Assembly (NCBI GenBank): GCA_030037785.1
Contig: JASHQA010000315.1
Coordinates: forward strand, 1-41,020
Direction: 5' to 3'
Origin: Streptosporangiaceae bacterium
GTDB taxonomy: Bacteria; Actinomycetota; Actinomycetes; Streptosporangiales; Streptosporangiaceae
DNA length: 41,020 bases
In this document: in pieces, positions 1,999 through 6,087 of the stretch
How the letters are laid out: every line of letters starts with the position of its first letter
How positions within the stretch are numbered: position 1 is the first letter of the stretch
The notes under the pieces: model-generated
The model's input: the letters and a program-made list of their open reading frames with translations, nothing else
Database searches by the model: none
Told to the model about the DNA's origin: nothing
Made by a program: the position numbers and the translations under genes

Positions 1999-2760
1999 AT
2001 GACTTCGGATGATCTTTCCGATGTGTCACATCCGGCCGTCGCCACTCCGAGGCGACGCTGGCGCGCGGTCACCGCGCTGATCGCGACCGGATTGGTGTCC
2101 TTAGCCATCGCTGTCGCGGCGGGCGTCGGCGCGTGCTCGGCTGCGACCCGCGGGCCAACCGCAGCTCAGCGTGCCGCCGCTGCCGCTATCGCGGTGGCGG
2201 ATCGGTGGCGAACCTGGCCAGCGGGCCGTATCTTCCCGGCCACGCTGACCTACAGCACGAACTTGCTGACCACAGAGCAGGCGAGCCGCGTCGGCATCGC
2301 GCCGCAGAGCACGTGCGCAAGCGCCGTCGATCCCGTCGCCGCTCGGCTCGCCGCGCGCGAGCACTGCCAGGCTGGGTTGCGCGCGACTTACCTCGATCAG
2401 CTCGGCGGCATTGTCTACACCGTCGGCGTGCTGGCGTTTCCGACTAGCCGGCTTGCCGCCGCCTTCGCCGCGCGGCTGCCATCGGGCCGCGGCCGCGGCT
2501 TCGCGTTACGCGCGCTCGCACTGCCCGGCACGGCGAGCGTGCTGTTCACCCCGCAGGCCCGGCAGACGGCTACGTCGAAGGTTGCCGGGCCGTTCGTCGT
2601 GCTCACCGTCGCCGGATACGCCGACGGCGAGCCGACCGGCCCCGGCCAGCAACCGCGCACCGGGATCTTCGCGCCTGCCAGCCAGCTTGCCGCCGAGGTG
2701 GCCAGCCCGCTGGCCCGCGTCGTGCCGGTCAACTGCAGCAAACCGCAGTGGGAGTGCTGA
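1999..2760 (+). CDS. Membrane-anchored extracellular protein with two conserved Cys pairs (subtilase partner 1)
   Basis: A 253-residue protein with a short basic N-terminus, one membrane helix (about residues 24-46) and an extracytoplasmic domain. I recognise no family. It is clearly paralogous to the product of 3998-4795. Both share RW...PAG(R/K)(I/V)FPA(T/Q)LT, VGIAP, a Cys pair separated by 16 residues, LRATY, and a final Cys-x6-Cys that ends the chain. The equal spacings suggest two conserved disulfides, which fits an exported domain. Its stop overlaps the subtilase start by one base (TGATG), so the two are translationally coupled. A role as chaperone, substrate or inhibitor of the protease is possible, but nothing in the sequence decides between these. 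Confidence 0.8.
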   Translation: MTSDDLSDVSHPAVATPRRRWRAVTALIATGLVSLAIAVAAGVGACSAATRGPTAAQRAAAAAIAVADRWRTWPAGRIFPATLTYSTNLLTTEQASRVGIAPQSTCASAVDPVAARLAAREHCQAGLRATYLDQLGGIVYTVGVLAFPTSRLAAAFAARLPSGRGRGFALRALALPGTASVLFTPQARQTATSKVAGPFVVLTVAGYADGEPTGPGQQPRTGIFAPASQLAAEVASPLARVVPVNCSKPQWEC

Positions 2761-4001
2761 TGACCGGCGCTCGGTGGCGGGGTCTGGCGGCGCGATGCGC
2801 GACGCTGAGCCTGCTCTGCGTGCTGCTTCTCGCGGCCTGGCCCGACTCCGCGTCGGCGCAGACCGTTCCTCAGCTCGTGCGCTCGGCTGATATGAGCGTG
2901 CTCAGTGAGATCGACGTGCCAGCGGCGTGGGCCACGACGAAGGGCAGCGGCGTGACCGTAGCGGTGCTCGACACCGGCGCCGACCCGACCGCGCCGGACC
3001 TGGTGGGCTCGGTGACCGTGGGACCAAACTACGCGGCGGGCATCGACCCGCCCGACTATCAGCTGCCGCTCCTGCACGGCACCTACATTGCCTCGATCAT
3101 CGCCGGTCACGGCAGCGGGCCCGGCGACTCCGAGGGAATGCTCGGCGTCGCCCCGCAGGCGCGGATCCTGTCCGTCCGCGTCGTCCCTGACGATCAGGAG
3201 CCAGGCTTCGCGATCTACAACGAGAACGCCGACTACGACAACGCCGTTCCCAACGGAATCCGGTACGCGGTCGCGCACGGCGCCAGCGTGATCAACATGT
3301 CGCTGGGGGGTGGCGACAGCCGGGCCCTGCGCCAGGCAGTTGCTGGCGCCCTCGCCCACGGCGTGGTGATCGTCGCTTCAGCTGGGAACAGCGGCACCGC
3401 TGGGGGCGGCTTCACGAGCTACTCCTATCCGGCCTCGATCCCGGGCGTCATCTCCGTCGCGGCCGTCAATGCGTCGGGGCAGCGCGCCTCGTTCTCGGAC
3501 GACAACTCCTCGGTCGTCGTCGCCGCGCCCGGCGTCGACGTGGACGGTGCCGCTGCGGGCGGCCAGTACGTCGAAGGCAGCGGCACGAGCCCTGCGTCGG
3601 CGTTCGTCGCGGGCGTCGCGGCGCTGATCAGGTCCGCGTACCCGCGCCTGACCCCCGTGCAGGTCATGCAGGCCATCGTCACCTCGACCACAAACCGGCC
3701 GACCGGAGGTTACAGTCCCGGCGTCGGCTTCGGCGAGGTGGACGCCGACGCTGCCCTGACGGCCGCGGGCACGCTCGCGGACACGCCGGCTGCCCACGGC
3801 AGGGCCGGGACGGCCTACTTCGGGCCACGGCTACGCGGCCCGATAGTCGTGGTGCCCAGGGATCCCACCCGGATCGCCGTAGCGGCCGCAGTGGCGCTCG
3901 CCGCGGTGATCGGATTCCTGGCCGCCGCCGCCGCACTGATCGCCACCGCGCGCCGCCGACGCCGCAAGGCGGCCGACCTGGCAATCGGAGAACCCGCATG
4001 A
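2760..4001 (+). CDS. Membrane-anchored subtilisin-like (S8) serine protease, mycosin-like
   Basis: A 413-residue exported protease. It has an N-terminal signal sequence (about residues 10-33, ending ASA), a peptidase S8 domain (about 45-340) and a C-terminal membrane helix (about 372-396) with a basic cytosolic tail. The catalytic triad is complete: Asp71 (VAVLDTGAD), His106 (LLHGTYIAS) and Ser277 (GSGTSPAS). The oxyanion-hole Asn210 (SAGNSG) is also present. Signal peptide, S8 domain and C-terminal anchor match the mycosins of type VII secretion, but no ESX genes occur here. The ATG at 2760 overlaps the upstream stop; an in-frame GTG at 2748 would only add four residues. The next gene overlaps by four bases. 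Confidence 0.92.
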   Translation: MTGARWRGLAARCATLSLLCVLLLAAWPDSASAQTVPQLVRSADMSVLSEIDVPAAWATTKGSGVTVAVLDTGADPTAPDLVGSVTVGPNYAAGIDPPDYQLPLLHGTYIASIIAGHGSGPGDSEGMLGVAPQARILSVRVVPDDQEPGFAIYNENADYDNAVPNGIRYAVAHGASVINMSLGGGDSRALRQAVAGALAHGVVIVASAGNSGTAGGGFTSYSYPASIPGVISVAAVNASGQRASFSDDNSSVVVAAPGVDVDGAAAGGQYVEGSGTSPASAFVAGVAALIRSAYPRLTPVQVMQAIVTSTTNRPTGGYSPGVGFGEVDADAALTAAGTLADTPAAHGRAGTAYFGPRLRGPIVVVPRDPTRIAVAAAVALAAVIGFLAAAAALIATARRRRRKAADLAIGEPA

Positions 4002-4795
4002 CGACGCCGCTCGGTCCCGAACCAGCCGGTCCCGAACCAGCCGGTCCCGCCGCCGACGGGACCAGGGTCAGCAGCGGCGGCCGACGCTTCTCTCGGCGGC
4101 TGCTGGCACTCATCACGCTCACCGTGGTCGGGCTCGTCGGCGTCGCGGGCGGCGGCGTGGCCCTGGGCCGGGAGCTCACCCGGACCGCAACGCCGACGGA
4201 GCAGGCGGCCGCAGTGCGGCAGGAGATCGCCACTCGATGGCAGCGGCTGCCCGCAGGCAAGGTGTTCCCCGCGCAGCTCACCTTCGCCTACACGGTGTAC
4301 TCAGACGTCTGGAAGACAAGGGCCAGGCTTGTGGGCATCGCCCCACCCGCGTCCTGCCGGGCCGCACTCGAGCCGGCTGCTTACCAGGTCGTCCGTGGCC
4401 TCGGCTGCGTCATCGTCCTGCGTGCCACGTACGTCGATGCCGCCAGGACGACCGCCACGACAGTCGCCATTGCCGTGTTCCCTGCACCGAATGCGGCCCA
4501 GACGGCGCAGATTATGCTTACCTCGCTCACGCCGGCGGAGGGCCTGCGCGTGGTGTCCTACAGCGGTACGGTCACCGGCGAGTTTGGCGATCCGTCCCGC
4601 GGGGAGTTCGGCACCGCGGTAGCGGGTCCGTACCTGTTGCTCTACACAGCCGGTTACACCGACGGCATCCCCGGCGCCATCGCAGCGACTGACTCGGACG
4701 AGCCATCCGACCTCGGCACCGGCGCGCTCGCGGTACTGGCTCACGTGCTCACCGCTCACGGCAGCCCGTGCCGGATGACGGACATCCAGTGCTGA
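3998..4795 (+). CDS. Membrane-anchored extracellular protein with two conserved Cys pairs (subtilase partner 2)
   Basis: A 265-residue paralogue of the product of 1999-2760. It has a proline-rich cytosolic N-terminus with a repeated GPEPA, one membrane helix (about residues 34-57) and an extracytoplasmic domain. The domain keeps the shared RW...PAGKVFPAQLT, VGIAP, Cys-x16-Cys, LRATY and terminal Cys-x6-Cys features. The ATG overlaps the protease stop by four bases (ATGA). With the following pseudo-subtilase it repeats the partner-subtilase gene order, so the cassette arose by duplication of a two-gene module. Function unknown. Confidence 0.8.
   Translation: MTTPLGPEPAGPEPAGPAADGTRVSSGGRRFSRRLLALITLTVVGLVGVAGGGVALGRELTRTATPTEQAAAVRQEIATRWQRLPAGKVFPAQLTFAYTVYSDVWKTRARLVGIAPPASCRAALEPAAYQVVRGLGCVIVLRATYVDAARTTATTVAIAVFPAPNAAQTAQIMLTSLTPAEGLRVVSYSGTVTGEFGDPSRGEFGTAVAGPYLLLYTAGYTDGIPGAIAATDSDEPSDLGTGALAVLAHVLTAHGSPCRMTDIQC
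4013..4048 (+). repeat. 15-bp tandem repeat coding for GPEPA
   Basis: Two perfect copies of GGTCCCGAACCAGCC followed by a partial third (GGTCCCGCC) lie near the 5' end of the gene at 3998. They encode GPEPA-GPEPA-GPA in the cytosolic N-terminal tail. In-frame slippage repeats of this kind can vary in copy number between strains. Confidence 0.85.
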
Positions 4796-6087
4796 CCGGC
4801 ATCGTGCCCGCCCGCGCGCGCCTAGCCATCGGCGGCCTGCTGACGGTCACGCTGGTGACCGTCAGCCTAGCCAGCGGGCCCGCCGCCGCCGCGGCACGCA
4901 CCGGGTCCGCGGCGGGCTCGGGCATTCCCGCCTCCGCGGTGACCCAGCTCGGCGGCGAGATGACCGCGGCCTGGCAGATCAGCACCGGTCAGGGCGTCAC
5001 GATCGCGCTCCTCAACACGGCCGTAGACCCCGTGAGCGACCTGGCCGGCAGGCTGACCGCCGGGCCGGACTTCGCACCAGTGCCCGGCGCCTCGGCAACA
5101 GACGGCACGGTGATCGCGACGCTGATTGCTGGCAGCGGCCCGACCACGGCGGACGCGTTCGGCGCTGTGGGCCGCGCGCCCGGCGCGCGGATCCTCTCAG
5201 AGCAAGTAGTGAACCCGGAGAACACAAGCTCACAGGAGAAGCACGACGAGTCCGCTGGCGTGTGGCCGGGCATCGTCGCCGAGGCAATCCGGTACGCGGT
5301 CAATCACGGTGCCAGCGTCATCGTGGACACGGAGTCCGGCACCGACAACTCCGTCTCGCTCGAGTCGGCCGTCGCGTACGCGGTTTCGAAGAACGTCGTC
5401 GTGATCGGCGGCAGTGCCGCGTACACCGGCAACCAGCAGGCACTCAGCTATCCGGACAGCATGCCCGGCGTGATCAACTTCAGCGGAACCACGATCAGCG
5501 GCCTGCCGGCGCCCGGCAGCTCCGAGCTGTACCCCGTCAACGCCTCGGTCATCGTCACGGCCCCGGACAATTCGATGTACGCCACCGGACCGGGCGATCA
5601 GCCGTACACCGGCTGGGGCTACTACTCAGCCGTGGCCTGGGTGGCGGGCACCGTCGCCCTGATCAAGTCCGTCTACCCGCAGATCACCCCGGCGATGGTC
5701 ATCAGCGCGCTGGCCCTGTCGGCGAGTTACCCCCCCGCCGGCGGATACAACACCACAATCGGCTTCGGACTGATCAACCCGCTGGGGGCTTTGCACGAGG
5801 CCGCGACCCTGATGAAGCAGCGCGCTACGGCCGCGCCGGGCCCGACCGCGCTGGCTGCCGGTGCCCGGTTCGACGGGACTCCGCCGGGCGTCATCCACGC
5901 GGTACACCACTCGATCGTCAAGCTCGGCGGGTACTCCGCCGCGATCGTCATCGGAGTCGCGCTGCTCATCCTGGCCGCCGTGCTGCGGCGGCGACCGCGG
6001 CGCAGCCTGGGCCCGGCCTCGCTGGCGCCAGTCGGCCCGCCCGTGGATCCGCCGGTCGATCCAGCCATCGACTCGCCTGGCGGCTAG
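4789..6087 (+). CDS. Catalytically dead subtilisin-like protein (pseudo-S8 peptidase)
   Basis: A 432-residue protein with the architecture of the neighbouring active subtilase: signal sequence, S8 fold and C-terminal membrane helix (about residues 380-399). Conserved blocks such as IRYAVNHGASVI, SYPDSMPGVI and GFGLINPLGAL show the fold is retained. Every catalytic position is changed. Asp becomes Asn76 (IALLNTAVD), His becomes Asp105 (ATDGTVIATL), Ser becomes Tyr279 (GWGYYSAVAW) and the oxyanion Asn becomes Ala. The reading frame is intact, so it looks like a maintained pseudoenzyme rather than decay. The GTG at 4789 overlaps the upstream stop, as for its paralogue; a GTG at 4768 would add seven residues. 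Confidence 0.88.
   Translation: MLTGIVPARARLAIGGLLTVTLVTVSLASGPAAAAARTGSAAGSGIPASAVTQLGGEMTAAWQISTGQGVTIALLNTAVDPVSDLAGRLTAGPDFAPVPGASATDGTVIATLIAGSGPTTADAFGAVGRAPGARILSEQVVNPENTSSQEKHDESAGVWPGIVAEAIRYAVNHGASVIVDTESGTDNSVSLESAVAYAVSKNVVVIGGSAAYTGNQQALSYPDSMPGVINFSGTTISGLPAPGSSELYPVNASVIVTAPDNSMYATGPGDQPYTGWGYYSAVAWVAGTVALIKSVYPQITPAMVISALALSASYPPAGGYNTTIGFGLINPLGALHEAATLMKQRATAAPGPTALAAGARFDGTPPGVIHAVHHSIVKLGGYSAAIVIGVALLILAAVLRRRPRRSLGPASLAPVGPPVDPPVDPAIDSPGG

Follow-up and report, generated by a model that had tools for sequence, protein, structure and literature searches.

Organization of the cassette and catalytic residues

What does a catalytically dead mycosin-like subtilase do when it is encoded directly behind an intact one? 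This arrangement is found in the window, by which we mean the whole analysed stretch of 41,020 nucleotides from a Streptosporangiaceae bacterium (contig JASHQA010000315.1), where four overlapping genes on the forward strand (1999-6087) follow each other in the order P1-S1-P2-S2, with P standing for a partner protein and S for a subtilase (Table 1). The original prediction had read this locus as partner-protease-partner-protease with overlaps of one to seven bases. Direct reading of the junctions bears this out, with overlaps of one base between P1 and S1 (TGATG), four bases between S1 and P2 (ATGA) and seven bases between P2 and S2. Third-position GC is coding-like in all four genes. The two partners share 34% identity (E 9e-19) and the two proteases 38% (E 7e-45). 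The start of S2 was placed at GTG 4789, because S2 of two congeneric genomes (G001 and G002) starts at the identical 7-base overlap. Another in-frame GTG is located upstream of this start, at 4768.

Table 1. Genes of the cassette and codons at the catalytic positions of both proteases.
Feature	Position	Strand	Basis
P1, partner of active protease	1999..2760	+	
S1, mycosin-like subtilase, catalytic residues intact	2760..4001	+	
P2, partner of dead protease, architecture as P1	3998..4795	+	
S2, catalytically dead; mycosin-like subtilase of 432 aa (start GTG 4789)	4789..6087	+	
S1 catalytic Asp71 codon	2970..2972	+	alignment, position computed from S1 start
S1 catalytic His106 codon	3075..3077	+	alignment
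S1 oxyanion-hole Asn210 codon	3387..3389	+	alignment
S1 catalytic Ser277 codon	3588..3590	+	alignment
S2 Asn76 codon, place of catalytic Asp	5014..5016	+	alignment
S2 Asp105 codon, place of catalytic His	5101..5103	+	alignment
S2 Ala211 codon, place of oxyanion Asn	5419..5421	+	alignment
S2 Tyr279 codon, place of catalytic Ser	5623..5625	+	alignment

The Asp/His/Ser triad of active S8 peptidases is present in S1 and absent in S2, which has Asn, Asp and Tyr instead. The residues named for both proteins from the sequence alone came out the same in the alignment, with Asp71, His106, Asn210 and Ser277 of S1 facing Asn76, Asp105, an Ala and Tyr279 of S2; this numbering follows from the start at GTG 4789, which makes the fourth site Ala211. 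Both proteases exceed the cut-off of the Peptidase_S8 profile (PF00082, 21.8), S1 with 162.9 bits and S2 with 28.1 bits, and both stay below the cut-off of the mycosin model TIGR03921 (278.75), with 241.0 bits (E 2e-71) and 153.4 bits (E 8e-45), respectively. The MycP architecture of signal peptide, subtilase domain and C-terminal transmembrane helix is found in S1 as well as in S2: hydrophobic segments of S1 cover residues 8-26 (signal peptide region) and 372-390 (C-terminal transmembrane helix region), and inspection of the S2 sequence revealed hydrophobic stretches at its N- and C-terminal ends.

S2 belongs to an old clade without intact members

The same four-gene cassette is present in two of the eight congeners searched, G001 and G002, on contigs with different flanks. 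Their S1 is intact and 66% identical to S1 of the window; their S2 is dead, with the residues G/D/A/Y and G/D/E/Y, and 56-58% identical to S2 of the window. The other congeners mostly contain one intact P-S pair, and tandem P-S arrays are common in Streptosporangiaceae, a family of soil actinomycetes in which a dead copy often comes after the gene of an active protease. The window genome and several of its relatives are draft assemblies.

In trees calculated after removal of the catalytic columns, with which an earlier tree including these columns agrees, S2 falls in a clade of exclusively dead proteins (SH-aLRT 99), here called clade A. It comprises 24 genes from 22 genomes and 16 genera of Streptosporangiaceae, the isolates Sphaerisporangium perillae, Actinomadura craniellae and Rhizohabitans arisaemae among them. 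An orthologue of S2 with an intact triad was looked for and found in 0 of these 24, including eight that had been found blind: a clade-A profile search of 151 family genomes identified these eight further members by score alone, and every one of them lacks the triad, has an adjacent P and is placed inside clade A. Judged by the score gap and by residue checks, clade A occurs in 20 of the 151 sampled genomes. The Ser site is mostly occupied by Tyr, Gly, Leu, Ala, Asp, Arg, Ile, Pro, Asn, His or Gln, and since the substituted residues vary widely among genera, no single new active-site function is shared.

The assumption that a two-gene module had been copied once had to be given up. A recent single duplication was ruled out by the trees, according to which the duplication is ancient, older than the genera, and yielded one of several paralogous P-S pairs. 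Next to the old clade containing S2, there is also a separate downstream paralogue, clade B, with intact and dead forms.

It had further been asked whether the dead copy always co-occurs with the rest of the cassette. Outside the window genus, an intact S1 was present in 11 of 11 further clade-A genomes checked, which is weak evidence at the genome level because intact S1-type proteases occur widely among Streptosporangiaceae. Co-occurrence was thus observed, but linkage is not strict: in Sphaerisporangium perillae (L085), the dead pair is located on a different contig than the active pair, and at locus L077 the clade-A pair stands alone in its neighbourhood.

Some features of individual loci may be mentioned here. 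In Rhizohabitans arisaemae (L084:3674-13879), five mycosin-like genes lie in a row in the order intact-dead-dead-dead-intact, three of which belong to clade A. In three genomes, an MmpL3-like MMPL transporter gene immediately precedes the cassette in the same orientation (L076:1432-3870, L078:3-1658 and L080:1490-3631), and several Actinomadura loci have an MmpL3-like gene in divergent orientation a few kb from the cassette.

Further losses of the triad

Clade B represents the downstream cassette gene in Microbispora, Planotetraspora, Sphaerimonospora, Microtetraspora, Acrocarpospora and strain NEAU-GS5, where it is dead (GDDG, HYDG, DQDG, EANE). Intact orthologues of it occur in Streptosporangium, Nonomuraea, Planobispora and two Sphaerisporangium strains. 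A third dead group, clade C, consists of longer proteins without P in the window genus. No dead member was found in the upstream clade, which holds S1. A single origin of the dead clades A and B was rejected (AU p=3e-5). In the topology tests, one origin of B and C gave p=0.011, and one origin of A and C was not rejected (p=0.17). On the basis of these tests, at least two losses of the triad are firmly established and a third is likely.

Another class of dead mycosin-like proteins has the residues S/Q/D/S, is extended at the C-terminus over a long stretch and lacks a P partner; its members measure about 550-910 aa as read, some being clipped by contig ends. They are present in most of the genus (L041:15435-17441 on contig C379 of the window genome, L035-L038 and L042-L044), and a trehalose-phosphate synthase-like gene is located near several of these loci. 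Dead forms similar to this class were seen in G027 (SQDN) and G141 (SEDD). Genome G041 (L232/L243; G041:C13) contains dead copies of two kinds, namely a GDDG copy that resembles clade B and lies downstream of an intact S1, and a clade-A copy on another contig.

Partner proteins and natural fusions

P1 and P2 each cross the membrane once, through a helix at the N-terminus (residues ~23-41 in P1), and have an ectodomain containing four conserved Cys, the final one at the C-terminus. A Pfam search assigned no family to either protein, and no relative of P was found in the PDB by sequence. The AlphaFold model of P2 (mean pLDDT 88.9) weakly resembles the extracellular domain of the mycobacterial kinase PknH (PDB 4esq; Foldseek E 0.057, probability 0.54, below all thresholds) and the mycobacterial TiME protein (E about 0.06). 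The kinase domain of PknH is missing in P, and the PknH_C profile (PF14032) gave 9.8 bits (E 0.87) for P2, short of its cut-off of 27 bits. The modelled resemblance may be taken as a lead toward a sensor role, and not as a result.

The partner tree mirrors the protease tree, and all 84 members of the upstream partner clade are linked to intact proteases only. Two natural P-S gene fusions were identified, one with an active protease (L083) and one with a dead protease (L075). In both, the P ectodomain runs straight into the subtilase domain and the signal peptide of the protease is missing; P and S are therefore located on the same side of the membrane. The fusions suggest that each partner acts on its own protease outside the membrane, and P and S probably touch each other. 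A model of the P-S fusion reached a pTM of 0.58.

Relation to ESX mycosins and other known systems

With their subtilase domain, signal peptide and C-terminal membrane anchor, the cassette proteases resemble the mycosins of ESX secretion systems (MycP1, MycP3, MycP5; TIGR03921), and MycP1 is the best solved-structure match to the S2 clade. They differ from these by scores below the equivalog cut-off, by the absence of the triad in S2 and by a dedicated P, which is missing from the ESX loci examined: where relatives have an ESX locus, it contains mycosin genes of its own, which encode an intact triad and have no P. Profile searches for EccB and EccD yielded no match in the window genome (93.6% complete) or in G001 and G002 (97-98%), nor in G069 and G041, which both contain clade A (98-99% complete). 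Given the absence of EccB and EccD from the window genome and the unrelated genes that flank the cassette, the possibility that it forms part of an ESX locus was rejected. For mycosins themselves, the essential role of MycP was shown to be independent of its protease activity, and they are known as a structural glue (PMC5082899); a trimeric packing was described for MycP5 (PMC8131196).

Another likeness exists to the clostridial germination proteases CspB/CspA/CspC, in which an active subtilase works with catalytically dead ones and a CspC:CspA pseudo-subtilase heterodimer signals in Clostridioides (PMC12880746, PMC6636752). In the cassette, a dead subtilase under purifying selection is co-encoded with an intact one, as would be expected of a pseudoprotease with an active partner. 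However, Csp proteins are soluble spore proteins of Firmicutes that have neither a membrane anchor nor a P partner, and the triad losses in Streptosporangiaceae are separate from theirs. S2 matched neither NF040808 (CspC) nor NF040809 (CspBA) at E values up to 1, and S1 matched the Csp models weakly (23.6 of 675 bits). The single P-S pairs of Streptomyces and of the moeZ neighbourhood share the partner, the intact subtilase and the gene overlap with the cassette, but stand as one pair only, and no dead copy was seen there. In agreement with the original prediction, no published description of a pair of active and pseudo-mycosin was found in a search of the freely accessible literature.

Selection on the dead protease and its possible role

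Pairwise dN/dS values, calculated for these GC-rich genomes with the simple Nei-Gojobori method, were 0.16-0.37 for the dead copies of eight species pairs (bootstrap 95% upper bounds ≤0.54), close to those of the active copies in these cassettes (0.14-0.28); for the window and G001, they amounted to 0.35 for S2 and 0.23 for S1. Conservation relative to the active enzymes was 0.46 (clade A) and 0.58 (clade B) near the catalytic site and 0.75 (A) and 0.89 (B) away from it. The SLG Ser181 of the S1-pocket strand is kept in 0% of the dead copies, and Tyr270 is missing from clades A and B. Conservation that is lost near the catalytic site and kept elsewhere implies selection on the fold, but not on the catalytic site or on part of the substrate cleft. 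Structural modelling was applied to L075, in which P is naturally fused to a dead S and which is 49% identical to S2 of the window over the shared region and has MycP1 as its top structure match: its protease half was predicted to adopt the complete fold of subtilisins (target-normalised TM 0.81-0.83, E about 1e-16). Together with the hydrophobic ends of S2, this model supports the view that fold, signal and anchor are retained.

Several roles can be considered for S2 against this background. The faster divergence of S2 compared to S1 in some pairs, such as the window and G001, might point to a decaying pseudogene. However, the open frame and the fold persist across 16 genera, the partner is retained and dN/dS is constrained, so that neutral decay, for which the original prediction had proposed this very check, was ruled out by dN/dS and clade-wide conservation and a pseudogene is hardly credible. 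The same dN/dS values and the 0 of 24 intact orthologues favour the proposed selection for a non-enzymatic role. A few relatives with Glu at the His site and a few with Ser at the Ser site (SERS, ASDS) could indicate that catalysis persists via a rearranged or sedolisin-like (Ser-Glu-Asp) centre; this was rejected as highly improbable, since the Ser site is replaced in most members and no alternative set of residues is conserved. S2 may also be a decoy or substrate-presenting subunit, whose dead cleft would bind peptide substrates of S1 or an inhibitor. The retained subtilisin fold and core would fit this idea, but the loss of Ser181 and Tyr270 and the reduced conservation around the catalytic site make it unlikely. 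Of the two roles suggested originally, substrate binding and regulation of the active partner, the former is the weaker one, because the SLG Ser of the S1-pocket and other cleft residues are lost in addition to the triad.

The main competing explanation is that S2-P2 is an autonomous envelope scaffold or receptor without contact to S1, the tandem arrangement merely resulting from duplication and co-expression. Unlinked or locally solitary clade-A pairs (L085, L077), the loss of cleft residues along with the triad, the known function of mycosins as structural glue and, as far as the insignificant model match to the PknH sensor domain can be considered, the fold of P all speak for it. On the other hand, the genes overlap, the order of active and then dead protease is conserved across genera, an intact S1 accompanied clade A in all 11 other genomes checked and cassettes of this kind lost catalysis in their downstream copy on two occasions. 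We regard autonomy as possible but somewhat doubtful. Both this explanation and a joint function with S1-P1 are reasonable, because precedents have been published with MycP, MycP5 and Csp.

The joint function is the explanation we prefer, and we consider the chances to be about even that S2-P2 works together with S1-P1 at the cell surface as a membrane-tethered, ESX-independent subunit that is itself non-catalytic. The cassette would then give rise to two membrane-tethered protease-partner pairs on the outside of the membrane, in each of which P, anchored by its N-terminus, would act with its ectodomain on the ectodomain of its own C-terminally anchored subtilase. S1-P1 would be the active protease and S2-P2 its pseudoprotease counterpart, which lost catalysis but retained the subtilisin fold, the anchor and a dedicated partner. 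In a mixed complex with S1-P1, this pair might be the regulatory or scaffolding part and gate or position S1, and the complex would work without the ESX secretion machine. Regulation of S1 by S2 is plausible; direct contact of P and S, a complex of S1 and S2 and the direction of regulation are what we infer. A more specific version, in which the dead pair senses an envelope signal via P and switches the active pair, with repeated catalytic loss in the downstream member, would amount to an ESX-independent surface system of actinomycetes that has not been described before; this version is tentative and falls short of being probable.

The cassettes appear to separate by evolution two roles of mycosins, as the upstream protease is always intact and the downstream one lost catalysis at least twice but remained under purifying selection. 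They hence offer a natural system for studying mycosin-like functions that are not proteolytic and the evolution of bacterial pseudoproteases, and culturable hosts are available with Microbispora, Acrocarpospora, Actinomadura craniellae and Rhizohabitans arisaemae.

Additional loci with related genes

Lone intact P-S pairs are often located beside moeZ, an O6-methylguanine-methyltransferase-like gene and UvrD-type helicase genes (L039:997-2241 and similar loci). Distant P-like membrane proteins, some of them in tandem, occur without an adjacent subtilase at L211:8609-11849, L212:9359-10390 and L215:8131-11231; those of L211 adjoin truA, with a phosphoglucomutase-family gene and a CAP-domain gene nearby. 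Finally, contig C33 of G069 contains five tandem S8-family frames (1274849-1290953), each open over about 1,130-1,170 aa.
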